DNA of 64,000 bases from Chitinispirillales bacterium (GCA_031254105.1 JAIRVB010000027.1:1-64000); one strand, 5' to 3'; numbered from the stretch's first letter, positions 37,241 through 58,136 are shown. Program-made: numbers and translations. The notes: a model not told the origin generated them from the sequence alone.

Positions 37241-39145
37241 TCACATATTAGTTTTCAGTTCAAGGCTTTCGGCCTTCAATACCGTGATAATTTTTTCCGC
37301 CATTGCCTGCGGCGTGAGGCCAAGTTCAGCTTTTATCTTACTGTTATCCCCATGAGAAACAAATCTATCGGGCAGCCCGAAAGACAGGAATTTTGGCCGG
37401 TGATCAAGCTGTGCGGAAAATGAAAGAACCGCGCTGCCGAAGCCTCCGGCAACCGTATTGTTTTCAAATGCGGCTACAATGGAGTGGTTTGAAAATATCT
37501 GTTCGTAAAATGCTGTATTGAGCGGTTTGGCAAACCGCGCGTCAACGAGAGTCGCCTCAATGCCCTGATCCGCAAGCAGTTCGCGTACGCCGCATACGTC
37601 GCCGTACATGTCGCCTAAGGAGATAAGCGCAATATGTGATCCGTTTTTAATAGTTTGCGGCACTCCAATCTCTATTTTTTCAAAGTCCGCGTCACATGTG
37701 CTTCCCGGCCCAAATCCGCGCGGATAACGGATGAAAACCGGGCCGCCGCTGTATTCTACCGCGGTGAACATCATATCCCGCAGCTCTTTTTCATCTCTTG
37801 GCGCCATTACAACTGCGCCGGGTACGGTACACAAATAAGAGATATCGAAATTACCATGGTGAGTGGGACCGTCATCACCTACAAGCCCCGCGCGGTCAAT
37901 ACAGAAAATAACATTTGTATTGTCAAGCGCGACATCCTGCATGATCTGGTCGTAAGCGCGCTGCAAAAAACTTGAGTATATGGCGACCACGGGCCTCAGC
38001 CCCTTAAGGGCAAGCCCCGCGGCAAAGGTAACGGCGTGTCCTTCCGCAATACCCACATCAAAAAACCGTTCCGGAAAAGTGTCCCTGAACTCATTGAGGC
38101 CTGTGCCATCGGGCATAGCGGCTGTGATAGCTACAAGATTCTTATTTGTTTTGCCCAGTTCAACCATTGTTTTACCGAAAACGCCGCTGTAGGAGAGGCT
38201 GTTTGAGCCGCCCTTTATAAGATCTCCGGTTTCCGGGCTGAATTTACTGACTCCGTGAAACTTTGTGGCGTTCGCTTCAGCAAACGGGTACCCTTTGCCT
38301 TTTTTTGTTACAACATGAACTAATACCGGGCCGGTTGATTCCTCTTTTAAAAATTTGAAAATCTTTATCATCTCCCCCAAATCGTGTCCGTCAATCGGGC
38401 CTATATAGCGCAGACCCATATCTTCAAACAGTTTACCGGGGATAAGGATATGCTTGAGGGTAGTGTCAACAGTGCGTATCATCTCCCTCAAGCCTTTGCC
38501 AACGCTCGAACGGTCGCCGAGAAGATCCCATACGGAATTTTTCAGCCTGTTGTACCGTTTGTCTGTTATAACGCGCGTCAGGTATTTTGAAAGAGCTCCC
38601 ACATTTTTAGAAATTGACATTTCGTTATCATTGAGTACAACGGTCATGGCTGTCGCGGATGAACCCATGTTGTTAAGCCCCTCAAGCGCAAGTCCGCCGC
38701 TCATTGAGCCGTCTCCAATTACCGCAACCACCGCGCTTTTCTGCTTTAACAGATCCCGCCCGGTGGCCAGGCCCAGAGCCGCGCTTATTGATGTGGATGC
38801 GTGCCCCACTGAAAAATTGTCATACTCGCTCTCAGAGATACGGGGAAACCCGCTGAGTCCGCCATGCTGCCTGATGGTAGAAAACCGCTCACGCCGTCCG
38901 GTGATAATTTTATGAGTGTAGGCCTGATGTCCTACATCCCAGACAATTTTGTCTTCAGGGGTATTGTAACAATAGTGCAGAGCCAGGGTGAGTTCTACCG
39001 CGCCCAGACTTGGAGCCAGATGACCCCCTGTTTGACTGACTTTTTCTATAATGAATTTACGGATCTGTTGAGCGAGAACCGGCAAGTTGTCCTGAGCGAG
39101 TATTCTGAGATCAGCCGGTGAATTTATTTTTTCTAAAATATTCAA
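37241..39145 (-). CDS. dxs: 1-deoxy-D-xylulose-5-phosphate synthase
   Basis: A 634-residue DXS, the thiamine-diphosphate enzyme that joins pyruvate and glyceraldehyde-3-phosphate at the entry to the MEP isoprenoid pathway and also feeds pyridoxal and thiamine synthesis. The ThDP motif is GDGSMSGGLALEGLNNMG. IVWDVGHQAYTHKIITGR, SVGHASTSISAALG and DRAGLVGDDGPTHHG are characteristic. Full length with a normal start. Confidence 0.97.
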   Translation of the reverse strand: MNILEKINSPADLRILAQDNLPVLAQQIRKFIIEKVSQTGGHLAPSLGAVELTLALHYCYNTPEDKIVWDVGHQAYTHKIITGRRERFSTIRQHGGLSGFPRISESEYDNFSVGHASTSISAALGLATGRDLLKQKSAVVAVIGDGSMSGGLALEGLNNMGSSATAMTVVLNDNEMSISKNVGALSKYLTRVITDKRYNRLKNSVWDLLGDRSSVGKGLREMIRTVDTTLKHILIPGKLFEDMGLRYIGPIDGHDLGEMIKIFKFLKEESTGPVLVHVVTKKGKGYPFAEANATKFHGVSKFSPETGDLIKGGSNSLSYSGVFGKTMVELGKTNKNLVAITAAMPDGTGLNEFRDTFPERFFDVGIAEGHAVTFAAGLALKGLRPVVAIYSSFLQRAYDQIMQDVALDNTNVIFCIDRAGLVGDDGPTHHGNFDISYLCTVPGAVVMAPRDEKELRDMMFTAVEYSGGPVFIRYPRGFGPGSTCDADFEKIEIGVPQTIKNGSHIALISLGDMYGDVCGVRELLADQGIEATLVDARFAKPLNTAFYEQIFSNHSIVAAFENNTVAGGFGSAVLSFSAQLDHRPKFLSFGLPDRFVSHGDNSKIKAELGLTPQAMAEKIITVLKAESLELKTNM

Positions 39146-40126
39146 TTACATGCGTCCTTTTTTAGTCGTGATTATCACTGTGTCTGATTTATCGCGATAA
39201 TTTACAACACAGATTAAACACGCGTTACTATAATCACAACTAACAAAGATAAGTTAAGTTAATGCTGTAAGACAAGAAGAATTCAGGAACTTCGGTTTAG
39301 AACTTGGAGCTCAGAACTTGTTGGGTAATTTCTCCATCAGTTTTTGGAGTTTCCTGAACCAACAATATTACATTCCTTATTTTTACAAATGGGAAAAGTG
39401 CCACCCTGAGCAATAGCGAAACCGCGCATCCATTCAGATACTCATCTCGCCAGGAAGATTTATATTCTGAGTTCAGGTCATATTCAGTCCCGCTGTGGTT
39501 CAATACATAATCTCATAAAATACGTTTTAACACGCACAAATGCCTGTTAGCAGAGGATTTGAGTACAAAAAAATAATAAAAATCATTGAGAAATAGTTTT
39601 GCATATATTATAATCTATATATATATTACAATCAAAATATTTAGTAAATACATGATGTTGTTTAAACATTAGAGTAGTTGTTCCAAATGAATGTTTTGAC
39701 GTCAGTTACGGCATCTTTGAAATGAGGTCTGACTTTCTCTCCTCTTCTCGCTTCTGCAGGTATGAGCGGATGGTGTAAAAAGTTCGACTATCGCAAATTC
39801 GAATTCTCTGTAACTGTAACCTGACTCAGGGTTTGATTCGCTGCAAATTATGAATTTAATCGTTCAGACCGAGCAAACGGTTTGAGTTTGTCCGTAACGC
39901 CGGTTAATGAACTTGAATATGTTTGAGAGCGTATCTATACTTGGCTTGTTGATTTTATAAAAAATGAGCCGTTGGCTGAACAGGGAAAACTTAATGAATT
40001 AAAATCGAATGTCATTTAATGGAAGCGGCGCGTACTCATATTACATAAAATAAGTAATCGTGAACAGAGAAAAAAACGCGACATTTTTCATGGATTGTTT
40101 TTTACATTGAAAGGAGTATCAGAATC
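39146..40126. other. Long intergenic region before the biosynthetic cluster
   Basis: A 981-base region without a supported gene. It contains an AT-rich segment near 39560-39660, the decayed frame at 39762-40019 and the AAAGGAG ribosome site (about 40110) of the next gene. A minus-strand frame at 39297-39503 looks non-coding. Confidence 0.5.
39762..40019 (+). pseudogene. Decayed or recoded short reading frame
   Basis: From ATG 39762 to TAA 40017-40019 the frame is interrupted only by three TGA codons (codons 21, 25 and 55). The residues between them look coding: KKFDYRKFEFSVTVT before the first, FAANYEFNRSDRANGLSLSV in the middle, and ERIYTWLVDFIKNEPLAEQG near the end. It is most likely a dead gene; no family was recognised. 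Confidence 0.25.
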
Positions 40127-43100
40127 ATGAAAAACAGAGATTACCCGCTTTATGGTGTGGAAAAAGTAAACACTCTAAAAGAATTAGTTAATGTTGCTGC
40201 CGGAAAATATTGTGACAAACCCGCCATTACTTTTGAGCGCAATATGGAAATTATAAGCGTCAGTTATCGTAAATTTAAATCGGATGTTGACGCGCTTGGT
40301 ACTTATTTTTATGACAGGTTTGCCCGCGACGCGAAAATCGCTTTGATCGGCGAAAACTCCTACGAGTGGATATTGACCTATTTTGCGGTGGTCAACGGTG
40401 GGAAAATCATTGTTCCGCTAGATCGTGAGCTGCCAAAGGAAGATATTAAAAATCTTGTTTTGGATTCAGGGGCAGAGGTTTTTGTGTTTTCGGACGCTTT
40501 TTCATATTTTGCGGACTATTTAAAGGCCAATGGCGCGCCGGTCAAGCATTACATCAATAAAACCACATTGCCGAAATTTTTGGAGTGCGGACGTTCGTTA
40601 TTGGCAAATAACGAAACGGGCTTTTTAAATTATGAAATTGACGAACGTGCCACAACCGCCATAGTTTATACATCGGGGACAACTGGAATAGCCAAGGGCG
40701 CAATGCTTTCGCATAGAGGTTTTGCGCATGATACGGTAGCCAGTTGCCAACACGTCAAAGCGATCGGAAGCAACATGCTTGTTCTCCCGCTTCACCACAC
40801 GCTTGGCTTTACTGCCGGAGTCAGTAGTATGTTGCTTCAGGGGAGTGAAATATATATAAATTCATGTTTGAAAAATGTTCTTTCGGATTTGGAAAAATTT
40901 AAACCCGGCACCATATTTTTGGTACCCTTATTTGTTGAAATTTTTTACAAAAAGATATGGGAAAGCGCAAAAAAGCAGGGAAAGGACAAATTATTAAAAA
41001 AATTGATCAGCTTAAGCAACGGTTTGTTGAAAATAGGTATTGATGTCCGACGCACGTTGTTTAAATCGGTTCTTCAGGCATTTGGCGGCAACCTGGCATT
41101 GCTCGTTTCAGGAGGCGCGCCCATTGATATAAAGTATATAACAGGATTGCATTATTTTGGGATGAATGTGCTGAATGGATACGGAATCACCGAATGTTCA
41201 CCCGTTGTAGCGGTAAATAGAAACAGTTACCACCATGACCAAAGCGTAGGGCAAGTATTGCCTTGCCATTGCTGTGAGGTCAAGATATCGGAGCCGGACG
41301 AAAACGGTCATGGGGAGATTTACGTTAAGGGCGACAGCGTCATGAACGGCTACTATGAAAACGAGCAGGCTACAAAAGAAGCCTTTGACGGTGAATGGTT
41401 TAAAACAGGGGACATCGGTTATTTTGACAAGGAAGGATTTTTGTATATAGCCGGCAGAAAAAAGAATCTGATTATACTAAAGAACGGTAAAAACGTATAC
41501 CCGGAGGATGTTGAGTTTTCGATTCTCAATTATATTCCGTACATAAAGGAAGCGGTTGTCTATTCCGAGGACAACATAATTGTCGCCGAGGTGTTTTTGG
41601 ACGTCGAAAACAATCCTGACTGTGTATCCCGGTTGGATGGCGACATTTTGGAACTGAATAAAACATTACCTTTGTACAAAAATATCGGAAAGACTGTAAT
41701 TAGGGATATTGAGTTTCAAAAAACCACTACCAAAAAGATTAAAAGGCATTGCGGAGATGTTGGTAAATCTGTAATCAATGAGGTTTTAGGAACGGAATCA
41801 TTCACTGATACTCAGAAAAAAATATGGGATATTTGGGCGTCAGCCTTGGGTCGCCGTGATTTTGGAATAGACCAAAGTTTTTTTATACTGGATGGTGACA
41901 GTCTTACTGCGGTTACGGTCATTTGCGAATTGGAGGCGGCCTTCGGCAAGGCATTGGATGTCAGATTGATATACGAGTATAACACGGTGGAGAAACTTGC
42001 CGGATATATTGACAGTAAGGATGGTGCGCGTGAAACTACGGTTTATGGGTATACCCCGCTGCTTGAAAGAGAGATAACCGTTGCCGGACCGAAGAATTTG
42101 CCTGAAGGCGGTAAACATGTTACTCTATTGACGGGATGCACCGGCTATTTTGGCGCACACGTTTTGAAAAAACTCCTTGATGGGACGCAGGATGACATTT
42201 ACTGCATAATACGCAATAAGAAAAAACATGAGGAGGTAATGGATTATTATTTTGGCGGTCTTTCCAAAATGGAGTGTGCAAGGGTGCATTTATTGCAGGG
42301 TGATGTAAGCGAGCCCAATCTCGGTCTTTCCGATAGAGTCTATTCGGATTTACTCGCCAAAGCAACCAGGGTGTTCCATTCTGCGGCTGATGTACGCCAT
42401 TTTGGGATATGGAAGGATTCTGAAAAAGCCAACATTTACGGCACTTATTACATTGCGGAATTATGCGCCGCCTGCGGTGCGCAGCTCAACCACATGTCTT
42501 CAATCTGGGTATCCGGGAAAAATATTTGTTCACAGTCGCAAGCGGTTGTTTTTGAGGAAAACACGCTTGATATCGGGCAGGGGTACACGGAAAACATATA
42601 TGTCCACAGTAAGTACATATCCGAGGTGCTTTTGAACAAGTATAAAGATAAAGGTTTACATATTAATACATATAGGCTGGGCAATTTGACGCCGCGCGCC
42701 AGTGACGGGAAATTCCAAATAAACCCCACAGACAACGGTTACTATATGCGCGGCGCTATAACGGGTAAACTGGGCTGCATACCATTGGAGCTTAAGGACT
42801 GTATGTTTGACATCACTCCGGTAGATAAGGCGGCGGAAGCCGTAGTTCTTTTGGCGTCCGGCAGCGGCAATGGCGTCTGGCATATTTACGACCACAACGA
42901 GAGGTCTTTCCATGACTACTGCTCAGAGCTTTACGGTGAGTTGGATATCGTGGATATTCCAACGTTCTTTTCCAAATTGGATGTTTTGGCGAAGGATGAT
43001 AAATCCGCAAATGTATTTAAGTTTTATTTGCATGAGATGCTCAAAGAGGACGCCGTGAAATATGAAATCTGTTTTTCAAGCGTTAAAACTCAAGCGGCCC

Positions 43101-43165
43101 TGAAGGAACTGAATTTTGAGTGGCAGCTTGAAAAAACGGCGGAAGAACAGCCTGTATCCTTATAG
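40127..43165 (+). CDS. Adenylation-carrier-thioester reductase protein (fatty-acyl-like A domain)
   Basis: A 1012-residue three-domain protein. Residues ~1-540 form an ANL adenylating domain: YTSGTTGIAKGAMLSH near residue 181, NGYGITECSP, and WFKTGDIGYFDKEGFLYIAG. Its middle (SLSNGLLKIGIDVRRTLFKS, then LLVSGGAPID) follows long-chain fatty acid-CoA ligases rather than amino-acid-activating NRPS domains. A carrier domain follows with Ser592 in LDGDSLTAV as phosphopantetheine site. Residues ~665-1000 form an NAD(P)H thioester reductase (LLTGCTGYFG; Tyr825/Lys829 in YVHSK). Expected chemistry: an acid is activated, held as a thioester and released as an aldehyde or alcohol. AAAGGAG precedes the ATG. 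It heads a plus-strand cluster with a radical SAM gene, peptide genes and an aminotransferase. Confidence 0.88.
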   Translation: MKNRDYPLYGVEKVNTLKELVNVAAGKYCDKPAITFERNMEIISVSYRKFKSDVDALGTYFYDRFARDAKIALIGENSYEWILTYFAVVNGGKIIVPLDRELPKEDIKNLVLDSGAEVFVFSDAFSYFADYLKANGAPVKHYINKTTLPKFLECGRSLLANNETGFLNYEIDERATTAIVYTSGTTGIAKGAMLSHRGFAHDTVASCQHVKAIGSNMLVLPLHHTLGFTAGVSSMLLQGSEIYINSCLKNVLSDLEKFKPGTIFLVPLFVEIFYKKIWESAKKQGKDKLLKKLISLSNGLLKIGIDVRRTLFKSVLQAFGGNLALLVSGGAPIDIKYITGLHYFGMNVLNGYGITECSPVVAVNRNSYHHDQSVGQVLPCHCCEVKISEPDENGHGEIYVKGDSVMNGYYENEQATKEAFDGEWFKTGDIGYFDKEGFLYIAGRKKNLIILKNGKNVYPEDVEFSILNYIPYIKEAVVYSEDNIIVAEVFLDVENNPDCVSRLDGDILELNKTLPLYKNIGKTVIRDIEFQKTTTKKIKRHCGDVGKSVINEVLGTESFTDTQKKIWDIWASALGRRDFGIDQSFFILDGDSLTAVTVICELEAAFGKALDVRLIYEYNTVEKLAGYIDSKDGARETTVYGYTPLLEREITVAGPKNLPEGGKHVTLLTGCTGYFGAHVLKKLLDGTQDDIYCIIRNKKKHEEVMDYYFGGLSKMECARVHLLQGDVSEPNLGLSDRVYSDLLAKATRVFHSAADVRHFGIWKDSEKANIYGTYYIAELCAACGAQLNHMSSIWVSGKNICSQSQAVVFEENTLDIGQGYTENIYVHSKYISEVLLNKYKDKGLHINTYRLGNLTPRASDGKFQINPTDNGYYMRGAITGKLGCIPLELKDCMFDITPVDKAAEAVVLLASGSGNGVWHIYDHNERSFHDYCSELYGELDIVDIPTFFSKLDVLAKDDKSANVFKFYLHEMLKEDAVKYEICFSSVKTQAALKELNFEWQLEKTAEEQPVSL

Positions 43166-43318
43166 TCACAAGTTGTTTTTAGCTTGTCTCCATGAACAGG
43201 CTCAAATAAATTTCATGGCTTTCAACTAAAAAAATGGGCGGCATACATGTCTCAATTGTAATAAACAAATGATTTTATTTTTCCTTAGCAGCGAAAGTCG
43301 GATATAATGATTTTTTTG

Positions 43319-43347
43319 TTGCAATTTTGATAATTATATTGTATACT
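43319..43347 (+). promoter_or_regulatory. Sigma-70-type promoter of the radical SAM gene
   Basis: TTGCAA (43319-43324) and TATACT (43342-43347) are separated by exactly 17 bases, 49 bases before the start codon at 43396. It would give the radical SAM and peptide genes transcription independent of the upstream A-T-R gene. Confidence 0.55.
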
Positions 43348-43395
43348 ATTGTAAAGACCAGTTGCAGTTAAACGATAGCGGGAATTGAAAAGTAT

Positions 43396-44394
43396 ATGGA
43401 TGTAGCTTTATTAAAAAAATATGCGAACTCATTAACCAATGAAAAATTGCGTTTAATAATCCTTCCTACGGAGGATTGCAACTTTCGCTGCTCCTATTGC
43501 TGGGAGAATTTCAATCATGGGATAATGAGTCCGGAAAATGTTGAAGCTATAAAAGTTTTACTGACTAACCGGGCAAAGGGGCTGAAACTTTTAGAAATAG
43601 AATGGTTTGGCGGTGAACCTCTTGTGGCAAAGGATATAGTGTTTGATATTTCTGATCATATACGACAATTGAAAACTGAATATCCGCAGCTTGTTTATAG
43701 AGGGGCAATGACGACAAACGGGTATCTTCTGAATTTGAAAACCTCAGGCAGATTGTGTGAATCGGGGATTAAAGAGTACCGTATCGTTCTGGATGGAACA
43801 GAAAAATTTCATGACGCGACCCGAAAACTCGCCAATGGCGGAGGGACTTTTAACATCATTTGGGATAATCTCGTGGCGCTGAAAAAAAGTGATCTGGATT
43901 TCTCCATACGCCTGAACATTAACTTCCTTTTAAATAATTATTCGCAGGCGGTTCCGCCGTTGCTGCAGCTTATAAATAAGACATTTCAGGGAGATAACAG
44001 ATTCTTTTTGTTTTTTAAAGCTGTACAGCGGCTCGGCGGTAAAAACGATTGCCTCATAGAAAAAGTAAACAGAGAAGAGGAAAATTTGATTATTGATGAA
44101 CTGTGCCGTCTGGTGGAAACCCAAAAAGTTATCAGATATGTTCCCAAAAACGATGTCTGCTTCGCCGCAGAATTAAACACAATGGTCATTCGCGCTAACG
44201 GAGACATAAACAAATGTGTAATAGCGTTGAAGGATGAGTGTAACAATGTTGGCAAATTGAATACGGACGGAACCATGACGATAGATCAGCAGAAATTTTT
44301 GAATTGGTCAAAAGGATTTGATCCATTGGATGAGCTGTATTTACGGTGTCCATATAAAGTCATAAAAAGCGTATCGGAAATCCAAAAAGTGTAA
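43396..44394 (+). CDS. Radical SAM peptide-modifying enzyme with SPASM/Twitch-like C terminus
   Basis: A 332-residue radical SAM protein. The [4Fe-4S] motif is CNFRCSYC (Cys28, Cys32, Cys35), followed by WFGGEPLVAKDIV and the TTNGYLL strand typical of peptide and sulfatase maturases. The C-terminal part has further cysteines at 255, 274, 282 and 318 around the phrase VIRANGDINKC, the usual beginning of a SPASM or Twitch auxiliary-cluster domain. No RiPP recognition element is evident at the N terminus. The two small peptide genes directly downstream are its likely substrates, with modification at or near their Cys-x-Cys ends; the precise reaction (thioether, epimerisation or other) is not readable. 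Confidence 0.85.
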   Translation: MDVALLKKYANSLTNEKLRLIILPTEDCNFRCSYCWENFNHGIMSPENVEAIKVLLTNRAKGLKLLEIEWFGGEPLVAKDIVFDISDHIRQLKTEYPQLVYRGAMTTNGYLLNLKTSGRLCESGIKEYRIVLDGTEKFHDATRKLANGGGTFNIIWDNLVALKKSDLDFSIRLNINFLLNNYSQAVPPLLQLINKTFQGDNRFFLFFKAVQRLGGKNDCLIEKVNREEENLIIDELCRLVETQKVIRYVPKNDVCFAAELNTMVIRANGDINKCVIALKDECNNVGKLNTDGTMTIDQQKFLNWSKGFDPLDELYLRCPYKVIKSVSEIQKV

Positions 44395-44518
44395 CTGCGG
44401 AAAGGAGGCGCAAGCAATTTGTTACGTTATGTAAAACGGCCTTTTTGTAACTTATGGATCAGATAAATACTGAGTATACTTGTAAAAATCATCAACTTGA
44501 AACACTGGAGGTGGCAGT

Positions 44519-44638
44519 ATGGCTAATATTACTATCGACAAATTCGGTATCGTTGATTTAGGTGAAGCTGTTTCCCTGAACGTTACCAACGAAGCTTCCG
44601 CTTCACTGCTAATGCTTTGCAGCTGCGACAATAATTAA
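44519..44638 (+). CDS. Putative modified-peptide precursor, copy 1
   Basis: A 39-residue peptide too short for usual gene calls, with GGAGGTG eight bases before the ATG. It starts MANITIDKFGIVDLGEAVSL, continues through NVTNEASAS and ends LLMLCSCDNN. The C terminus carries a Cys-Ser-Cys motif after a hydrophobic run. It lies 124 bases after the radical SAM gene, and a second copy differing in one residue (Ile4Val) follows. Position, size, duplication and Cys-rich end all fit a ribosomally synthesised, post-translationally modified peptide. I know of no named family with this sequence. Confidence 0.75.
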   Translation: MANITIDKFGIVDLGEAVSLNVTNEASASLLMLCSCDNN

Positions 44639-44711
44639 CGCGCTGTTCAAAGCGGCTTGTTTATTTACCAGTAACTAACAAATCAATCACTCAAACACTG
44701 GAGTTACAAGT

Positions 44712-44831
44712 ATGGCTAACGTTACTATTGACAAATTCGGTATCGTAGATTTAGGTGAAGCTGTTTCCCTGAACGTTACCAACGAAGCTTCCGCTTCACT
44801 GTTAATGCTTTGCAGCTGCGATAATAATTAA
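44712..44831 (+). CDS. Putative modified-peptide precursor, copy 2
   Basis: Second 39-residue copy, starting MANVTIDKFGIVDLGEAVSL and identical to copy 1 after residue 4. At DNA level 114 of 120 bases agree; five of the six changes are silent. The duplicated unit includes upstream sequence (AAACACTGGAG before each ATG), so the whole peptide module was copied 193 bases apart. Its ribosome site is GGAG. A strong hairpin follows before the aminotransferase gene. Confidence 0.75.
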   Translation: MANVTIDKFGIVDLGEAVSLNVTNEASASLLMLCSCDNN

Positions 44832-44864
44832 CATTGTTAATATCGTTATTTGAAGCTGTTTTTA

Positions 44865-44900
44865 CTTGCCCTAACCGCCGCTAATGGCGGATAGGGCAAG
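44865..44900 (+). promoter_or_regulatory. Strong hairpin between peptide genes and aminotransferase
   Basis: CTTGCCCTA-A-CCGCC, loop GCTAAT, GGCGG-A-TAGGGCAAG: fourteen base pairs with a single A-A mismatch. No T run follows. It starts 33 bases after the second peptide stop and could act as an mRNA-stabilising or attenuating element that keeps peptide expression above that of the enzyme downstream. Confidence 0.7.
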
Positions 44901-44942
44901 AAATTATTAAATGTCAGGAAAAGATTCGAGAAGACAGCAGAC

Positions 44943-46205
44943 ATGTTCGAAAAAAGCCGCAAGTTATTAGATGATTACGCCGGATTCTTATATCCGGTTT
45001 TAGATTTTTGCGAAACAGTTACTGTAAGAGGCGAGGGCTGCTACGTATGGGATGCGGACGGCAACAAAATACTGGATCTCAACAGCGGCCAGTTTTGTTC
45101 TGTCTTCGGACACTCCGACCCGCAAGTCGCTGAAACCGTATATAAAACCGCTTTAAAAATTCAGGATACAAATACCGCTGCCCTGAGTGAAGAAGTTCTT
45201 TTCGCGGCAAAGAGAATACATGATATATGTCCGGAGATGAACGCGCGGTCTTTTTTTCTTTCCACCGGCGCGGAAGCGAATGAGTGCTGTCTGAGATACG
45301 CCCGGCACTTAAACGGCGGCAAACCGGGGGTGATAAGTTTTGACAATGGCTACCATGGACTTACTCATGGAACAAAAAGTCATTCAACCGGCCGCAGGCA
45401 TGTAAATCCTCCGCTTAATTTCGCGTATGTGACGCGCGTCCCAAGAATGTATAATGAAACAGATTTAACAGATCGGCAAATTGATGAATATATCGAAGAA
45501 TTCAGGAACATCGTTCACGCGAACGCCGGTAATATAGCGATAGCTATTTTTGAGCCTGTTGTATCGTCCGGCGGCATGTACATTCCTTCCAGGAGATATT
45601 TTAAAAAGATACGGGAAATATGCACTGAATATAACATATTTCTCGCTTTTGACGAATGTCAGACGGGCTTTGGACGAACCGGTACATGGTTTTACTACCA
45701 GCAGCTGGAATGCACGCCGGACTTTTTGGTATGCGCAAAAGGGATAGGGCTTGGATATCCGGTATCTGTCGTAATTTTTAACGGGAATACATTTTCTAAT
45801 CCAACATCTGATCTGCAACATTTTTGTTCTCATCAAAATGACCCGTTTGCGGGAGCCTTGGTATCGCACGGCATAGATACCATAGAAAAAAACAACCTGA
45901 TGGAACATATAGGAAAAATGGGCGTCTATCTGTTGGACAGCCTGAAAAATATCTCTTCGCGGCATGTATTTGTACAGAATCCAAGAGGCGTGGGTCTGAT
46001 GTGCGCGTTTGACATAGGGGCTGACCAGTCGGACATTGCGGCACAGGGTATTTTATTCTGTAAAAGAGCATTGGAAAATAATATTATGCTTCAACCCTGC
46101 AATGGAGGAAAAACCATACGTTTGCTGCCAAGTTACTGCGTTACTGAAAATGATATTGATTTTCTATGCCTGCGGCTGAAACAGGTTCTCAAGAAATATT
46201 ACTGA
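44943..46205 (+). CDS. Class III PLP-dependent aminotransferase
   Basis: A 420-residue aminotransferase of the class III (GSAM/ornithine) family. The PLP lysine is Lys266 in CAKGIGLGYPVS; the cofactor-binding Asp is in FDECQTGFGRTGT; TGAEANECCLRYARHL holds the phosphate loop. It begins like glutamate-1-semialdehyde aminomutases and ends normally. Next to an aldehyde-releasing A-T-R protein, the simplest idea is amination of the released aldehyde, giving a long-chain amine; it may instead act on a peptide-derived carbonyl. No ribosome site stronger than a weak AAGA motif precedes its ATG. Confidence 0.85.
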   Translation: MFEKSRKLLDDYAGFLYPVLDFCETVTVRGEGCYVWDADGNKILDLNSGQFCSVFGHSDPQVAETVYKTALKIQDTNTAALSEEVLFAAKRIHDICPEMNARSFFLSTGAEANECCLRYARHLNGGKPGVISFDNGYHGLTHGTKSHSTGRRHVNPPLNFAYVTRVPRMYNETDLTDRQIDEYIEEFRNIVHANAGNIAIAIFEPVVSSGGMYIPSRRYFKKIREICTEYNIFLAFDECQTGFGRTGTWFYYQQLECTPDFLVCAKGIGLGYPVSVVIFNGNTFSNPTSDLQHFCSHQNDPFAGALVSHGIDTIEKNNLMEHIGKMGVYLLDSLKNISSRHVFVQNPRGVGLMCAFDIGADQSDIAAQGILFCKRALENNIMLQPCNGGKTIRLLPSYCVTENDIDFLCLRLKQVLKKYY

Positions 46206-46240
46206 TTTTTAAATATTAAGTCTCCTCTAAGAGGATCTGG

Positions 46241-46573
46241 TCATCCTGCTTTATTGCTTTCTGAAATCAGCTCATTTTCACGCGCGGAGCCGACCGGATT
46301 TACATTGGGCGATCCGCATTTGTGACAAAACTTCTGCAATGTGTGCCATATTTGAAATACAGGGCCGCCAAGAAAGAGTAACGTCAAAACAAGCGTTTTG
46401 CGGCTCATATACAGGTCAGATATTTTCTCAATATCATGCGCAACTATCATTAAGCTGAGTATAAAACCTGTAACCGTCGTGATTATCCATAAAATGACTT
46501 CAATTATGAAAAAAGGAGTCACGTGATTACGCGGATTTCCCACATGATTACAATCATCACAGATATGCCCCAT
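46241..46573 (-). CDS. Small membrane protein bracketed by Cys pairs
   Basis: A 110-residue protein beginning MGHICDDCNHVGNPRN, with two membrane segments (IIEVILWIITTVTGFILSLM and LVLTLLFLGGPVFQIWH) and then FCHKCGSPN. The terminal Cys-x-x-Cys pairs probably fold together as one zinc ribbon on the same membrane face. Function unknown; it is convergent with the aminotransferase gene. Confidence 0.55.
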   Translation of the reverse strand: MGHICDDCNHVGNPRNHVTPFFIIEVILWIITTVTGFILSLMIVAHDIEKISDLYMSRKTLVLTLLFLGGPVFQIWHTLQKFCHKCGSPNVNPVGSARENELISESNKAG

Positions 46574-46633
46574 ATTGCCTCCTCCAGGCCTGTTTACCTG
46601 CCATTAAGTTTATAGTAGTTTCACTCCAAAAAC

Positions 46634-46746
46634 AAATGCAGAAATAAAATATAAAGATAATGTTAGAGTTTTTGTTGTAGTATTAAGTGTTTTCTATTTC
46701 TGCATTCTGAATTCTGCATTATTATTTCTGTATTTGTTTCTGTATT
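46634..46746. repeat. Dispersed AT-rich repeat, copy near MATE gene
   Basis: Contains AAATGCAGAAATAAAAT, the core TTTTTGTTGTAGTATTAAGTG (46668 onward) and the closing TTCTATTTCTGCATTCTGAA. The core is in the same orientation as that at 6332 and opposite to that at 29686. Confidence 0.75.
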
Positions 46747-46821
46747 GATCAGCAAAATTACAGAAGATCATTTACACGCTCCTTTTCTGCCCGCCCGCGG
46801 TTCCCGCGGCCACGGCTCAGG

Positions 46822-48171
46822 TTATATCACCGGTTTCTTCCAAAGCCCGGATTTATACCATATCAGGCTGGCGCACATCATAAGGAAAAACGCCACGTCA
46901 TAAGAGATCCAGATTCCGCTAAGCCCCAGGTCTCCTTTGGAAAGCACGGCCGCAAGCGGCACGCGAATCCCCCACACTGCGGTAAGCGCGAAAATGAGAG
47001 TAACTATAGTGTGTCCGGAACCGTTTATAATTCCGTTTGACACATACATTACCGCGAAAAAAACGGTCGCCGGACCTATTATCCGCAAATAGTTTGCTCC
47101 TACGGCGATCACATCCGAATCGCTTGTAAAAGGAGAGAGCAGTTTGTCTGGAATTAATACAAAGAACAGTGATAAAAAACAGGTGACGCAAACAGTCATA
47201 AGCAGCGCCCATCTGAAAACGCAATCAACACGGTCAAATCTGCCTGCGCCCATATTCTGAGCGGCAATAATCGAAACCGCGGCCCCCATAGACTGCGCTG
47301 GCATATAGACCATAGAATCTATCCGTCCGGCGGCGCCAAAACCTGCTATGGCGGCGGCGCCGAAAGTATTAACAAAAGAGGTGATTGTAACCATTCCTAT
47401 AGATACGGCGGATTGTTGAATTATGGATGGAAAGCCTATTCTGCAAATCAACCTTACGATATTGGCGTCTATGCTGAGATGACGGCTTATGGCAAGCATA
47501 CTGCCTCTGCGTCTTAAATACGCGGCGCACAGCGCGAGAGTGACAAAAGATGAAATAAGCGAGGCCCAGGCGGCGCCGTTAAGCCCCATTGCTGGAACAG
47601 GTCCTATTCCGATAATCATCAGCGGATCGAGCGCCGCGTTAAGCGCTATGCCTGCGATTATGAAATAAAGCGGCGTTTTGCTGTCTCCAATTCCACGAAG
47701 AATAGATTTTATCAGAAGGGTCAAAAAAACAAAGGGAATATTAAGGAATGAGATTCTCAGGTATGACAACGCCATAGGGTAAATCGTTTCGGGTGTTCCG
47801 AGCGTTTGCAGCATTCTGTCTGCAAACAATATCCCGCCGGCGCAAGATAGAGCCGACAGGATAAGTATTAATGAAAAAGAGGTATTTACAGTTTTAGCCA
47901 CCATACGGTAATTGCGGGCGCCAAAAAACTGTGAAACAAGAATGCTTGTCGCCGCCGTCGCTCCGGTAGCCGCTCCAATGTAAATAAACACCACCGGTAT
48001 GCTTATAGTAATCGCGCCTATAGCGTCTGTGCCTAAAAAACGGCCGACCCACAATACGTTTACAAAGCTATAACCCAGATTAAGCAAATTCGCCAGAAGC
48101 ATAGGAGTGGCAAGTAAAAACAAATGACGCGGTACACTGCCTTTTGTCATGTCGTTTCCGAATTTTCTCAT
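46822..48171 (-). CDS. MATE-family efflux transporter
   Basis: A 449-residue multidrug and toxin extrusion family transporter with about twelve membrane segments. Family features include MTKGSVPRHLFLLATPMLLA at the start, the GFGAAGRIDSMVYMPAQSMG segment in the second half and an IIAAQNMGAGRFDR loop. It exports cationic or amphipathic compounds by Na+ or H+ antiport. It lies beside the peptide/A-T-R cluster on the other strand and downstream of a small Cys-x-x-Cys peptide gene; a role in product export is possible but not shown. Confidence 0.92.
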   Translation of the reverse strand: MRKFGNDMTKGSVPRHLFLLATPMLLANLLNLGYSFVNVLWVGRFLGTDAIGAITISIPVVFIYIGAATGATAATSILVSQFFGARNYRMVAKTVNTSFSLILILSALSCAGGILFADRMLQTLGTPETIYPMALSYLRISFLNIPFVFLTLLIKSILRGIGDSKTPLYFIIAGIALNAALDPLMIIGIGPVPAMGLNGAAWASLISSFVTLALCAAYLRRRGSMLAISRHLSIDANIVRLICRIGFPSIIQQSAVSIGMVTITSFVNTFGAAAIAGFGAAGRIDSMVYMPAQSMGAAVSIIAAQNMGAGRFDRVDCVFRWALLMTVCVTCFLSLFFVLIPDKLLSPFTSDSDVIAVGANYLRIIGPATVFFAVMYVSNGIINGSGHTIVTLIFALTAVWGIRVPLAAVLSKGDLGLSGIWISYDVAFFLMMCASLIWYKSGLWKKPVI

Positions 48172-48326
48172 CGCTTTAACCCTTAGTATAAAGCAACCGC
48201 CAAGGCGTTCTTATATGTCCAATACCGGACGCCGCTGAAAAACTTCCGTATATAAGATAAAATAATGCTTGCGGCATCGGCTGCCAAAGATATTTAGTGT
48301 AATATTACGGCGTTGTAGCTAACGCT

Positions 48327-48551
48327 TTAGTCTGTCGCGCAAGCAAAACAAGTGTCTGTCTGGATTCTTTCGTTCGCCGCACTTGACATCTGACTTGTGA
48401 ATATCGCTTTAACATGGTTCATCTCATAACCGTTTTCACTTAACAATGGATTAATGATGTTTGTGGTGAGATTCACGTCAAAATGAAACAAAGGTTTACA
48501 GTGGGAAAGTTTCTTTTCCGCCGGCAATTCAGGGTTGTGGATATTTGACAT
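48327..48551 (-). CDS. Small Cys-x-x-Cys-ended peptide upstream of the MATE gene
   Basis: A 74-residue frame beginning MSNIHNPELPAEKKLSH and ending ERIQTDTCFACATD. The C-terminal CFAC motif and the short length recall RiPP precursors, and the next gene on the same strand is a transporter, 155 bases on. The ribosome site is weak (AGGAA about 20 bases upstream), and the sequence is otherwise unrecognised. The remaining bases of 48172-48799 have no supported gene. Confidence 0.35.
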   Translation of the reverse strand: MSNIHNPELPAEKKLSHCKPLFHFDVNLTTNIINPLLSENGYEMNHVKAIFTSQMSSAANERIQTDTCFACATD

Positions 48552-48748
48552 ACCGCGCTATAACTATTCCTGGGAAGTCTTTGGTAATTATCCCGCCAAA
48601 TCAGATTCATTTTAAAGAAAAATGTGTACGGCGCCAGTTTGTGAAATATTGTGGAACAGATATATTTTTAGTAACTTGGCGCCATAGTGACGACATTTTG
48701 TAAATCGTTGATTTTTAATGAGTTATTGCTATAGGCTTTTAATTGTAA

Positions 48749-49945
<1,197 letters not shown>

Positions 49946-50094: not shown

Positions 50095-51909
50095 ATGGAT
50101 AACCAAACCTATAATTCAATAGTCAGTTTTATCTGGGGAATTGCAGATGATTGTCTCCGCGATGTTTACGTGCGCGGAAAATACCGCGATGTCATCCTGC
50201 CAATGACCGTTATCCGCCGCTTAGACGCTGTGCTTGAGGATACTAAAGACGATGTTCTTAAAAAGAAAAAGTGGCTTGACGATAAAGGCATTCTCAATCA
50301 AAATGAAGCCCTGTGCAAAGCGGCGAAGCAATCATTCTGCAACAGCTCTCCGTTTCTTCTTAAAAACTTGACAGGCCGCGCAAGTCAGCAAAAATTAAAA
50401 GCGGACTTTGCAGCGTATTTGGACGGTTTCTCTCCGAATGTGCAGGAAATCCTTAAAAAATTCAAATTCCACGTCCAGATAGATACTATGGTTGACGCCG
50501 ATATTCTCGGCGCGGTCATCGAAAAATTCGTATCCCCAACCATCAACCTGAGCCCCTATCCAATACTTGACGACCTTGGCGGCATAAAATTTCCGGCTCT
50601 TGACAATCACACTATGGGGACAGTTTTTGAAGAGCTTATCCGCCGCTTTAACGAAGAAAACAACGAAGAAGCGGGTGAGCATTTCACACCGCGCGATGTC
50701 GTAGAACTTATGGCAGATCTCATTTTCCTTCCTGTCGCCGATAAAATAACAGACTCCACGTACTCCTGCTACGACGGAGCGAGCGGTACGGGCGGTATGC
50801 TCACCCTCTCGCAGGAACGTTTGCAAAAACTTGCGGAATCCAAAAACAAAGATGTGTCAATACACTTGTTCGGGCAGGAGATTAACCCCGAAACTTTTGC
50901 CATCGCCCGCGCCGATATGCTCCTTAAAGGCGAAGGAGCCGAAAATATCGCGTACGGCAGTACTCTTTCAGACGATCATTTTCCCACTCGTCAGTTTGAT
51001 TTCATGCTCTCCAACCCGCCATACGGCAAATCATGGAAAAACGACGCCGACAAGTTAGGCGGCAAGAAAGGCATTACCGACAGCCGTTTTGTAACACCGT
51101 TCGCCGGAGATGCCGAATTTTCCATGCTTCCCCGCGTAAGCGACGGGCAGCTTCTGTTTTTGCTCAATAACGTATCAAAAATGAAAGAATCCACTCCGTT
51201 AGGCTCGCGAATCGCCGAAGTTCACAACGGTTCATCCCTCTTTACAGGCGATGCCGGACAGGGCGAGAGCAACGCGCGCCGCTATCTTATTGAGCGCGAT
51301 CTAGTTGAAGCCATTATCGCCCTGCCCAACAACATGTTCTACAATACCGGCATAGGAACATACATTTGGGTATTGTCAAACCGGAAAGAAAAAAAACGCA
51401 AAGGTAAAATCCAGCTCATTGACGCGACCGCGCTAAAGCAGCCGCTTCGCAAAAATCTCGGCAATAAGAACTGCGAGTTTACTACCGAAATCCGCAAGCA
51501 AATTATCAAAATGTATATGAAATCAGAAGAAAACGAATACAGCAAAATCTTTCCCAACAGCGCGTTCGGATATTATAAAGTAACGGTGCTGCGCCCTCAA
51601 TACGGCGAAGACGGCAAGCCGCTTCGCGATAAAAAGAAAAATCTCATTCCCGATAAGCAACTAACAGACACCGAACAAATCCCGCTTGACTACGAGGGCG
51701 GCATCAGCGCGTTTATAAAAAAAGAGGTATTGCCCTACAGCCCTGACGCGTGGGTGGATGAAAGCAATACGCAGACAGGTTATGAAATCAGTTTTACAAA
51801 GCATTTTTATAAACCCGTGCGGCTGCGGGAGCTTTCGGAGATTGTTGCGGATATCAAAGCGTTGGAGAGGGAAACGGAGGGGCTGCTTGAGGAGGCGCTT
51901 AAAATATGA
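50095..51909 (+). CDS. hsdM: Type I restriction-modification methyltransferase subunit
   Basis: A 604-residue N6-adenine methyltransferase. The SAM motif is CYDGASGTGGM near residue 230 and the catalytic NPPYG is near residue 308; the N-terminal HsdM_N helical domain has LPMTVIRRLDAVLEDT. EEAGEHFTPRDVVELM precedes the SAM motif. It methylates the site read by HsdS. Its stop overlaps the start of the DUF1016 gene by four bases. Confidence 0.95.
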   Translation: MDNQTYNSIVSFIWGIADDCLRDVYVRGKYRDVILPMTVIRRLDAVLEDTKDDVLKKKKWLDDKGILNQNEALCKAAKQSFCNSSPFLLKNLTGRASQQKLKADFAAYLDGFSPNVQEILKKFKFHVQIDTMVDADILGAVIEKFVSPTINLSPYPILDDLGGIKFPALDNHTMGTVFEELIRRFNEENNEEAGEHFTPRDVVELMADLIFLPVADKITDSTYSCYDGASGTGGMLTLSQERLQKLAESKNKDVSIHLFGQEINPETFAIARADMLLKGEGAENIAYGSTLSDDHFPTRQFDFMLSNPPYGKSWKNDADKLGGKKGITDSRFVTPFAGDAEFSMLPRVSDGQLLFLLNNVSKMKESTPLGSRIAEVHNGSSLFTGDAGQGESNARRYLIERDLVEAIIALPNNMFYNTGIGTYIWVLSNRKEKKRKGKIQLIDATALKQPLRKNLGNKNCEFTTEIRKQIIKMYMKSEENEYSKIFPNSAFGYYKVTVLRPQYGEDGKPLRDKKKNLIPDKQLTDTEQIPLDYEGGISAFIKKEVLPYSPDAWVDESNTQTGYEISFTKHFYKPVRLRELSEIVADIKALERETEGLLEEALKI

Positions 51910-53051
51910 GAAAAGCAAAACAAAATCCATTGACAAAACGTAAAAACACAAACATCCATATATACGCCGATTATCATGCTTGGTTTGAATCTCTGAAGAA
52001 ACAGATTCAAGTTGCGCGTACCCGCGCCGCGCTGGCTGTCAACGCTGAACTTGTCCATCTGTATCATAAAATCGGTATGGATATTTTACAGCGGCAACAA
52101 ACGCACCGTTGGGGCGATAAAATCATTGCCCGTCTTGCTGTTGACCTAAAGACAGCATTTCCCGACATGAAAGGATTTTCTGCAACAAATCTTAAATATA
52201 TGCGTTATTTTGCTGAACAATGCCCTGTTGTCAAAATAGGCCGGCAGTCCGCTGCCCTAATTGGTCAGCAGCCTGCTGACCAATTGCCGTGGTTTCACAT
52301 TGTAACAATTCTGACAAAAACAAAATTGAATGACCGTGAATGGTATGCCGCCCGCGCTGTTGCCGAAGGGTGGTCGCGTTCAACTCTTGAACAAAACATC
52401 AAAAATCAATTGCGCAAACGTCAAGGCACCGCAATCACAAATTTCGCAAAGCGGCTTCCTGCGCGGCAATTCGCGCTTGCGCAGGAAATCTTGAAAGACC
52501 CTTACAACTTCGATTTCCTCGGCTTGGCTGATAACGCTCACGAACGTGAGATCGAAAATGCGCTCATACGGCATATTTTACAGTTTTTACTCGAACTTGG
52601 TGTTGGATTTGCCTTTGTAGGACGTCAGTTTCGTCTTGAAGTTGATGGTGATGAATTTTTCATAGACTTGCTGTTTTATCACACCCGCCTCAAATGCTAC
52701 GTTGTCATCGAACTAAAAGCGGCTGAGTTTAAACCGGAACATACAGGAAAATTGAATTTTTATCTTACAGCCGTAGACGAGCAAATCAAAGCGCCGGATG
52801 ATCGCCCGACAATCGGTCTGCTGCTCTGCAAAAATCGTAAAAAAATCGTCGCCGAATACGCCCTGCGCAATCTTAACAGCCCAATTGGAATCGCGGAATA
52901 CCAGCTTGTCGCGGCATTGCCGAAAGAACTGAAAAATGAACTCCCAAGCATTGAGGAAATTGAAGCCAGACTTGCAGAAAACGCGAAACTTCCGAGCCGG
53001 AAGAAAGTTGTTACGGGGGGCGGGAAGACGAAGATTGGGGGCGGGGAATGA
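51906..53051 (+). CDS. DUF1016/YhcG-family PDDEXK nuclease
   Basis: A 381-residue protein with the N-terminal DUF1016 helical domain (LVHLYHKIGMDILQRQ, NLKYMRYFAEQCP) and a C-terminal PD-(D/E)xK nuclease: Asp254 in EFFIDLLFYHTRL, then Glu269 and Lys271 in VVIELKAAEF. A short low-conservation insert (PVVKIGRQSAALIGQQPADQ) lies near residue 110. It starts within the hsdM stop and ends within the hsdS start, so the three are tightly coupled. Such genes recur inside type I loci with a suspected accessory defence role; no mechanism is known from this sequence. Confidence 0.88.
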   Translation: MRKAKQNPLTKRKNTNIHIYADYHAWFESLKKQIQVARTRAALAVNAELVHLYHKIGMDILQRQQTHRWGDKIIARLAVDLKTAFPDMKGFSATNLKYMRYFAEQCPVVKIGRQSAALIGQQPADQLPWFHIVTILTKTKLNDREWYAARAVAEGWSRSTLEQNIKNQLRKRQGTAITNFAKRLPARQFALAQEILKDPYNFDFLGLADNAHEREIENALIRHILQFLLELGVGFAFVGRQFRLEVDGDEFFIDLLFYHTRLKCYVVIELKAAEFKPEHTGKLNFYLTAVDEQIKAPDDRPTIGLLLCKNRKKIVAEYALRNLNSPIGIAEYQLVAALPKELKNELPSIEEIEARLAENAKLPSRKKVVTGGGKTKIGGGE

Positions 53052-54283
53052 GTTATAGTTATAAATCTATACATTTACCGTGGCTATCACAAATACCTAA
53101 ACACTGGGAATTGGTACGAAATAAAGTACTACTTTATGAGACTAAAAATACTGTTGGTTCTGAACACGCAAAGTATCAACTGCTATCACTAACTAAAAAT
53201 GGTGTCATTATTCGTGATATTTCAAGTGGCAAAGGAAAATTTCCAAGCGACTTTGGTACATATAAGACCGTAAATGATGGCCAGATTATTTTTTGCTTGT
53301 TTGACGTTGACGAAACTCCACGAACAGTTGGTTTGTCAAAACATAACGGAATGATTACTGGCGCATACGATGTATTTTCTATAAATGGAGTAAATCCTTG
53401 CTTTTTAGAATACTATTACATTTTGCTTGATGATGCAAAGGCTATGCGTCCTCTTTATACTGGTTTGCGAAAAGTAATTAGTATAAATGCTTTTATGCAA
53501 ACTTATTTTCCACTCCCACCCCGCCCCGAACAAGACCAAATCGTGCGGTTTCTCGATTGGAAAGTGTCGGGGATTAATAAATTGATAAATGCTAAGAGAC
53601 GGCAGATTGAGTTGTTGAGGGAGAAGAAGAGGGTGGTGGTGAATGAGGCAGTAAGTAATTCAGGTAATTGTCAAAAATGTAAATTGAAAAATTTAGCGTT
53701 CTTCAAAAGTGGTACAAACCTAACATCGCTTGAAATTGAATTGGCAGGTAAATATCCTGTATTTGGGGGTAATGGGTTGCGCGGATACTATCCTGAATTT
53801 TCACATACAGGAGAATATTTGCTTGTTGGACGGCAGGGAGCATTATGCGGAAATATTCACTATGTGAACGAAAAGTTTTGGGCAACTGAACACGCTGTAA
53901 CTGTAAAGCCATACGACATAGCTAATATAAGATGGTTGTATTATTTTCTTATTGGTATGAATCTAAATCAATATTCTATGGCAGCAGCCCAACCGGGACT
54001 TTCCGTTGAATATATCGTTAATTTGCCTGCATATTTCCCTACTAAAGATAAACAACTGTCAATAGCTGAATATCTTGACAAAAAATGTGCTCAAATAGAT
54101 TCCATTATCAACAAACTAAATGACGAAATATCGCTATTCGCCGAATACCGTACCCGCCTCATTTCCGATGTAGTTACGGGTAAGGTTGATGTGAGGGGCG
54201 TGGTTGTTCCTGAATTTGAGGCGGTTGAGGATTTTGTGGGGGAAGAGGAAGGGGATTTTGTTGCGGACGAAGAAACAAGCTAA
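53048..54283 (+). CDS. hsdS: Type I restriction-modification specificity subunit
   Basis: A 411-residue DNA-recognition subunit with two target-recognition domains (about 10-150 and 200-335), each followed by a helical spacer. The spacers are similar: the first ends FLDWKVSGINKLINAKRRQI, the second AEYLDKKCAQIDSIINKLND. The first domain starts LPWLSQIPKHWELV, a typical HsdS opening. The interior is more AT-rich than hsdM, as expected for a fast-changing recognition gene. The C-terminal tail is acidic (EEEGDFVADEE). Confidence 0.93.
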   Translation: MSYSYKSIHLPWLSQIPKHWELVRNKVLLYETKNTVGSEHAKYQLLSLTKNGVIIRDISSGKGKFPSDFGTYKTVNDGQIIFCLFDVDETPRTVGLSKHNGMITGAYDVFSINGVNPCFLEYYYILLDDAKAMRPLYTGLRKVISINAFMQTYFPLPPRPEQDQIVRFLDWKVSGINKLINAKRRQIELLREKKRVVVNEAVSNSGNCQKCKLKNLAFFKSGTNLTSLEIELAGKYPVFGGNGLRGYYPEFSHTGEYLLVGRQGALCGNIHYVNEKFWATEHAVTVKPYDIANIRWLYYFLIGMNLNQYSMAAAQPGLSVEYIVNLPAYFPTKDKQLSIAEYLDKKCAQIDSIINKLNDEISLFAEYRTRLISDVVTGKVDVRGVVVPEFEAVEDFVGEEEGDFVADEETS

Positions 54284-54407
54284 AAAATTTGGAAATTCTA
54301 ATGAAATGTAGTATTTTCTTTACAAAGAATAATAGATTTAGGTTCAGTAATAAATGGTTATATAATTAAAGTATAATTGAAATTTCAAAAGTAAGGATGT
54401 ATTTAAA

Positions 54408-55418
54408 GTGGCAAGAGCAGATTTGCTTTGTGATATAGTAAAATATGGATTAAATGGTGATAACGCAAACTTCCGTAAGGCTGTAGAAGCAATATGTGCC
54501 GAGGAGCGTGCTAAACAACACGGGGTTTTAGCTAATCGTATAGAAGAGATGCTTAAGGTTTCTAACAAATTCTATACTAAAGAGCTACCCGCAGGTCATA
54601 TTAAAAACGGTAATGGTAATGGAGATGCACATACTGTAATCGAAAAAATACCTGAAGTAAAAATAGATAATCTGCTTCTTCCTAAAAACGTAGTAGACAG
54701 TTGCAGTGAACTTGTATCAGAGCATATGAGGGCTGATATTCTTCGTTCACATGGATTAGAGCCGAGAAATAGAATACTCTTAGTTGGTCCTCCGGGTAAC
54801 GGGAAAACATCTCTTGCCGAAGCGGTTGCAGAAGCATTAATGCTACCTTTTCTTACGGTAAGGTATGAGAGTCTTATCGGCGCTTATCTTGGTGAGACGG
54901 CTTCACGTCTTAACAAATTATTTGAATATGCAAAAACACGTCAATGTGTTTTGTTTTTTGATGAGTTTGAGACACTTGGTAAAGAACGTGGTGATACGCA
55001 TGAAACAGGCGAAATTAAGCGTGTTGTAAGTTCATTACTGCTTCAAATTGATGCTTTGCCAAGTTATGTAATAGCAATCGCAGCCACAAACCACGAAACA
55101 TTACTTGATCGCGCCGCTTGGCGCAGATTTCAAATGAAATTAACATTGCCGCATCCTACAAAAGATGATTTGCAATCATGGTTTAAACTTTTTGAAAAAC
55201 GAACAAATTTTGATTTCGGCTTGGAGCCATCTATATTGGCCAAAAAGCTATTCGGAAAAAGTTTCGCTGAAGCAAAAGAATTCGCATTGTCTGTTTACAG
55301 GCAATATGTTTTGCAATTGCCTGATGCAAACGCAAAGGGTATAACTCAAAATCAACTTGCCTTATACGCCGCGCAAGCGAATGTTAAACGATGTGAGGAG
55401 GTTGAGAATAATGGCTGA
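54408..55418 (+). CDS. ietA: AAA ATPase of an IetAS-like pair
   Basis: A 336-residue AAA+ ATPase starting at GTG. Walker A is VGPPGNGKTSLAEAV near residue 126; Walker B is VLFFDEFETLG near residue 182; sensor/second-region IAIAATNHETLLDRAAWRRF follows. The gene ends inside the start of the subtilase gene. This AAA-plus-subtilase pair matches the IetAS systems described as plasmid toxin-antitoxin and anti-phage modules. The ATPase may control or unfold substrate for the protease. It is inserted between hsdS and hsdR. Confidence 0.85.
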   Translation: MARADLLCDIVKYGLNGDNANFRKAVEAICAEERAKQHGVLANRIEEMLKVSNKFYTKELPAGHIKNGNGNGDAHTVIEKIPEVKIDNLLLPKNVVDSCSELVSEHMRADILRSHGLEPRNRILLVGPPGNGKTSLAEAVAEALMLPFLTVRYESLIGAYLGETASRLNKLFEYAKTRQCVLFFDEFETLGKERGDTHETGEIKRVVSSLLLQIDALPSYVIAIAATNHETLLDRAAWRRFQMKLTLPHPTKDDLQSWFKLFEKRTNFDFGLEPSILAKKLFGKSFAEAKEFALSVYRQYVLQLPDANAKGITQNQLALYAAQANVKRCEEVENNG

Positions 55419-57972: not shown

Positions 57973-58136
57973 TTATTTCCCGAAAATTATCACATGAAAA
58001 ACGAGAATTTAGAAGCTATGTTCATCAATACAAAAAAATGTGCGACTTTAGTTTGTCTGACAATTAAGATTGAAGTTATTATTGAGCGGTTAATACTAAA
58101 AAACTGGATAAAATTTTCTCATTAAGGTATTACCAT

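Follow-up and report, generated by a model that had tools for sequence, protein, structure and literature searches.

We examined a 64,000-nucleotide stretch of DNA from a Chitinispirillales bacterium (GCA_031254105.1 JAIRVB010000027.1:1-64000, hereafter the window), focusing on a group of genes at 40127–46205 that a first-pass annotation, made from the sequence alone, had read as a hybrid cluster. The five genes described in that annotation are all present there, on the plus strand. These encode a 1012-aa adenylation-carrier-thioester reductase protein (ATR, 40127–43165), a 332-aa radical SAM protein considered a peptide maturase (43396–44394), two 39-aa precursor peptides (A, 44519–44638; B, 44712–44831), and a 420-aa class III pyridoxal phosphate (PLP) aminotransferase (AT3, 44943–46205).

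Together with a 110-aa membrane protein and a MATE-family exporter, these genes make up a block of about 9.6 kb (39146–48763, no strand assigned) between dxs (37241–39145, minus strand) and tgt (48764–49945, plus strand). The block looks inserted, because dxs and tgt adjoin directly in four members of the host’s family (G004, G005, G006, and G018; loci L053, L064, L065, and L067), where they are divergent neighbors 0.3–0.7 kb apart. As dxs has other neighbors in the same-genus genome G024, the empty dxs-tgt site was deduced from the wider family. GC content also points to insertion, at 0.36–0.46 across most of the block versus 0.45–0.53 on the dxs side. In another genome of the family, G016, the space between dxs and tgt holds a different gene set (L066, 3663–6159), with genes for a 498-aa PapB-like radical SAM protein (178 bits to the PapB model, cutoff 340) and for two proteins of 242 and 100 aa, the shorter one having a Tat-like start, which suggests that dxs-tgt is a recurrent insertion site. 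We see an even chance that the block in the window forms a small, two-module island for secondary metabolism.

ATR, AT3, and a predicted route to a fatty amine

ATR contains an adenylation (A) domain (PF00501 at 24–410, 2.1e-54), a carrier domain (PP-binding at 566–628, 9.8e-13), and a reductase region matched by both NAD_binding_4 (668–905, 4.2e-38) and the thioester reductase model TIGR01746 (666–993). Its catalytic motifs are complete: YTSGTTGIAKG, GYGITE, TGD, and an A10-type lysine for adenylation, DGDSL in the carrier, and TGCTGYFG and YVHSK in the reductase. The closest relatives of the A domain that were found (n = 7) are all freestanding acyl ligases. Four of them, from the host’s phylum (L018, L019, L020, and L021), are 47–50% identical to it (blastp), and three (L031, L032, and L033), from genomes in the phylum of an Erysipelotrichaceae metagenome-assembled genome (MAG), are 35–41% identical. 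A discrete carrier-protein gene (~70–80 aa) adjoins the ligase in 3/7 cases (L018, L019, and L031), while none was seen at L020, L021, L032, or L033. Because these relatives are acyl ligases, some with an adjoining acyl carrier protein gene, the substrate of ATR is likely a fatty acid, in agreement with the first-pass description of the A domain as fatty-acid-ligase-like, and ATR is predicted, by inference, to convert a fatty acid to a fatty aldehyde. AT3 matches PF00202 (3.8e-78) and carries the PLP motifs DECQTGFGR (237) and AKG (265).

The proposal that an aldehyde released by ATR is turned into an amine by the aminotransferase has a characterized precedent. In tambjamine YP1 biosynthesis in Pseudoalteromonas tunicata, TamA (an adenylation-ACP protein) and TamH (a class III aminotransferase-thioester reductase) turn fatty acids into amines in vitro (PMC9594044). 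Common to TamA/TamH and the block are fatty-acid adenylation with a carrier, reduction of the thioester to an aldehyde, and amine formation by a class III aminotransferase; in the block, the fatty-acyl adenylation and carrier motifs are intact, and the reductase is accompanied by an AT3 that has the PLP lysine and aspartate. However, the reductase of TamH is acyl-ACP-reductase-like and fused to the aminotransferase, whereas that of the block is TIGR01746-type and fused to the adenylation and carrier domains, with AT3 standing alone. As the domain fusions differ, we consider this a functional likeness and not membership. The two systems also differ in their partners, which are pyrrole genes for tambjamine but, in the block, genes for a radical SAM enzyme and a peptide. 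For the aquimarins, a thioester reductase and an aminotransferase have been proposed (as cited in PMC10036551); going by that citation, the reductase-aldehyde-aminotransferase logic would be shared with the block, but aquimarins involve a non-ribosomal peptide on a carrier, while in the block the carrier would bear a fatty acid, with a ribosomal peptide encoded alongside.

Co-occurrence of the four gene types in other genomes had been set as a test by the first-pass annotation, and the outcome so far is negative. Among 168 genomes of the host’s phylum (81 relatives in the case of the peptide search), the host genome was the only one with the ATR architecture, AT3, a close homolog of the radical SAM protein, or the peptides, at the thresholds used. 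Matches to the carrier-reductase pair in this phylum were just 27–33% identical and mostly lay within large open frames resembling nonribosomal peptide synthetases (NRPS). Beyond this phylum, samples of a few hundred genomes per phylum were searched. The 392 genomes sampled from the phylum of the Erysipelotrichaceae MAG yielded only freestanding A domains in the ATR search (at 1e-70). For AT3, samples from two further phyla (398 and 395 genomes) gave no match at 1e-60, a blank that carries no weight unless backed by a positive control. Among the plasmid matches listed for ATR, there were only distant ones, NRPS/CAR-like or ligase (22–33%), and viral contigs held no relative of AT3. The combination of fatty-amine and radical SAM peptide genes was thus seen in no other genome searched.

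The radical SAM protein and its precursor peptides

The radical SAM protein matches PF04055 (1.4e-12) and carries CNFRCSYC at 28–35, GGEP at 72, and further cysteines at 255, 274, 282, and 318. Its predicted fold (mean pLDDT 75.9, pTM 0.78) has a well-modeled barrel region, and its best PDB match is the sactipeptide thioether maturase 5why/5wgg (Foldseek 1.8e-14; phmmer 4.9e-14), followed by anSME, ChlB, and SuiB. Among NCBIfam models, it is nearest to TIGR04463 (137.9 bits, cutoff 525) and then matches the Clo7bot, geopeptide, CefB, and PapB models, with all scores below every cutoff shown, including that of the PapB ranthipeptide maturase (NF047865; 90 bits, cutoff 340). Alignment with eight relatives showed that it lacks the N-terminal ~75 residues present in these, a leader-binding-like region, and that its SPASM domain is incomplete: C255, C274, and C318 are retained, but the CxxC...C...C part and the last cysteine are gone. 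An intact, seven-cysteine SPASM domain was ruled out on this basis. No remnant of the N-terminal region was found in stop-to-stop frames of the DNA upstream of the gene, and an RRE-like leader-recognition domain is absent from the enzyme, with no candidate open reading frame (ORF) for one within the block (39146–48763), where we looked. The protein thus resembles TIGR04463/PapB/CteB-type maturases in its radical SAM barrel, its adjoining small cysteine-containing peptides, and its best solved fold, but departs from them in its missing N terminus, its incomplete SPASM domain, and scores far under the cutoffs. Overall, homology and fold support placing it with peptide maturases, so that part of its first-pass description as a SPASM-type peptide-modifying enzyme stands, while the SPASM domain itself is only partly there.

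The nearest relative (L003, in a Bacteroidetes MAG) is 36% identical, and no closer one was found among ~85,000 species genomes, in a scan that needs short exact stretches and that diverged copies may escape. Small cysteine-rich ORFs adjoin the radical SAM relatives in L003, L004, L005, L007, and L022, which are most of the relatives’ loci examined, so a radical SAM protein with a small cysteine-containing peptide appears to be a recurring pair. At L003, a 35-aa ORF (11154–11261) ending in NCLFCNTLFCTAD begins 76 bp past the radical SAM gene and is preceded by a near-perfect ribosome site (AAAGGAGGTGA); it is likely the precursor of a ribosomally synthesized and post-translationally modified peptide (RiPP). 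At L004, also from a Bacteroidetes MAG, two tandem 63–64-aa GG-leader peptides with repeated CxC motifs (513–1005) precede genes for the radical SAM protein and for a C39-like transporter. L022, from G016, has an 82-aa peptide (9311–9559) with a cysteine-rich end, YSRCDCDDCDHWSHCG, adjoining its radical SAM gene.

Precursor peptide A (MANITIDKFGIVDLGEAVSLNVTNEASASLLMLCSCDNN) is preceded by the ribosome site GGAGGTGGCAGT, and peptide B is a near-copy (97% identical) with the single substitution Ile4Val. The first-pass annotation was right about twin 39-residue peptides but had them ending in Cys-Ser-Cys; the true end of both is Cys-Ser-Cys-Asp-Asn-Asn (CSCDNN). Six codons differ between the two ORFs and 5/6 of the differences are synonymous, for which p is ~0.005 (at most 1/6 non-synonymous), assuming that about three quarters of random changes are non-synonymous. 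In addition, the repeat unit starts in and takes in the ribosome-site region (CAAACACTGGAG...ATGGCTAA). Mostly synonymous differences and a repeated ribosome-site region together support the peptides as real coding sequences under constraint. Their codon use (0.74 and 0.78) is like the mean for genes of the window (0.77), but this is weak evidence, as equally high scores arise in 12.5% of synonymous versions of peptide A drawn at random. Short precursor genes with a cysteine-containing C-terminal core next to the enzyme are as expected of a radical SAM RiPP system. PapB forms thioethers between Cys and Asp over spacings from 0 to 6 residues (PMC9413430), and this tolerance makes CSCD a plausible thioether target, although other radical chemistry is possible; the C-S-C-D sequence is compatible with a PapB-type Cys-to-Asp/Glu thioether and says nothing stronger.

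One product or separate systems

Our preferred interpretation, on which we stand at the midpoint between belief and doubt, is that the block holds two modules, one in which ATR and AT3 would make a fatty amine and one in which the radical SAM enzyme would mature the peptides. The A domain would activate a fatty acid and load it onto the fused carrier domain, the reductase domain would release the loaded acid as a fatty aldehyde, and AT3 would convert this to the amine. The radical SAM enzyme would modify the Cys-Ser-Cys-Asp end of both peptides, most likely with a thioether (e.g., linking Cys34 or Cys36 with Asp37 or a different residue, with a loss of 2 Da). Both modules might then contribute to a single cationic amphiphilic product, or work in concert, and the MATE protein would export the product; here the substrates, the thioether, the joint product, and the export are what we infer. 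In favor of this interpretation are the same-strand order of the genes, their common place between dxs and tgt, and the MATE paralog inside the block. The latter (46822–48171, minus strand, co-inserted) shares 66% identity with a second MATE copy elsewhere in the host genome (G000:C19), which in turn is 76% identical to the copy in G024. As the block’s MATE is less like the G000:C19 copy than that of G024 is, it is a divergent paralog that came with the block or settled in it. We considered it a candidate exporter of a cationic product; a cationic amphiphile is the kind of cargo that would fit a MATE protein.

Several observations weigh against this interpretation. The block encodes neither a joining enzyme, amide-forming or other, nor a peptidase or a C39 peptidase-bearing ABC exporter, and the 230 bp between ATR and the radical SAM gene would allow separate transcripts. 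Without its leader-binding-like N terminus and at least three SPASM cysteines, the radical SAM protein may be impaired, and its model is poor at the C terminus, with confidence below 50 at residues 308–332. No match to ATR or AT3 was found in the loci of its relatives, of which several are short; these relatives are distant, leaving room for linkage in closer ones. As no second genome with the gene set turned up in the searches made, conservation offers no check on the linkage of the modules. The first-pass annotation inferred a lipid-amine or amine-capped modified peptide. A lipid-amine-capped peptide finds no support in the block, which has no joining enzyme, or in the relatives’ loci, which are without ATR or AT3, and the interpretation in that annotation is, overall, partly supported. 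A bolder reading, in which the radical SAM enzyme, stripped-down as it is, crosslinks a ribosomal peptide close to the C terminus and the peptide is then coupled to the ATR/AT3 fatty amine to give a cationic amine-lipidated RiPP exported by MATE, seems to us rather unlikely, and no RiPP made as an amine-lipidated, radical SAM-crosslinked peptide was described in the literature searched.

That radical SAM-peptide pairs occur without ATR or AT3 in the relatives examined, and A-domain relatives without a radical SAM protein, would also fit two independent systems that share an insertion site, with ATR, AT3, and perhaps MATE forming a fatty-aldehyde/amine lipid pathway next to an unrelated small radical SAM peptide system. 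The other radical SAM set in G016 adds to this, as the site may take cargo repeatedly, but the modules interleave, with AT3 lying 3' of the peptides on the same strand and the radical SAM and peptide genes between it and ATR; we regard such independence as a serious, if somewhat unlikely, alternative. Another is that the peptide module is decaying, leaving an inactive radical SAM protein and a fatty-amine module that works alone. The regions missing relative to all eight aligned relatives and the low-confidence C terminus are what this would predict, yet the ORF is stop-free, its core motifs are intact, its barrel is modeled well, and the peptides are still nearly identical with mostly synonymous changes, which makes decay improbable. 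Least probable is a daptide-like route, in which AT3 would aminate the peptide C terminus after its conversion to an aldehyde or ketone. In daptides, an amine replaces the C-terminal carboxyl (PMC10036551). Their clusters, like the block, hold a class III aminotransferase along with a ribosomal peptide, and AT3 does match the daptide aminotransferase model (NF041821, 166 bits); however, this is under the cutoff of 450 and lower than the scores of several generic aminotransferase models. Further, the oxidative decarboxylase, RRE partner/RRE-DUF, and methyltransferase of daptide clusters are absent from the ORFs of the block, the peptides end in DNN instead of a C-terminal Thr, and the A domain is of acyl-ligase type. 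Considering the low score and the missing genes, daptide membership was ruled out.

Both halves of the block resemble known chemistry. If ATR/AT3 and the radical SAM enzyme share one product, this would be a new route to lipidate a ribosomal peptide, through a dedicated fatty-amine pathway whose characterized precedent serves a pyrrole antibiotic, and a radical SAM protein without the leader-binding-like region and the second SPASM half would test the minimal scaffold for a peptide maturase. If the modules are independent, the block has two known chemistries side by side, which is nothing unusual.

Other features of the block and its surroundings

A stable RNA hairpin (44865–44900, plus strand) lies between peptide B and AT3. 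The region 44832–44942 folds at −35.8 kcal/mol (z = −5.29; 0/200 shuffles were equally stable), and the hairpin has no T run after it. Possible roles are 3'-end protection or attenuation of read-through, and our guess is that it could hold transcript levels of the precursors higher than those of AT3. Upstream of the radical SAM gene, there is a weak promoter-like consensus match (TTGCAA-17-TATACT, 43319–43347, plus strand); as 23 such sites were found versus 20.4 expected in shuffles, it is no evidence alone, and promoter and terminator consensus matches were dropped for showing no excess over shuffles. An Rfam match to isrK on the other strand (E = 0.085, 23.5 of 50 bits) was weak and taken as chance.

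The 110-aa protein (46241–46573, minus strand, co-inserted) has two hydrophobic stretches, with cysteine pairs close to its N and C termini, and matches nothing in Pfam or NCBIfam; it could be an immunity or accessory protein. Beyond tgt, the window contains type I restriction-modification genes (50095–61133), comprising HsdM, a PDC-S02/PD-DExK-like gene, HsdS, and HsdR, with an IetA-IetS defence pair between HsdS and HsdR.

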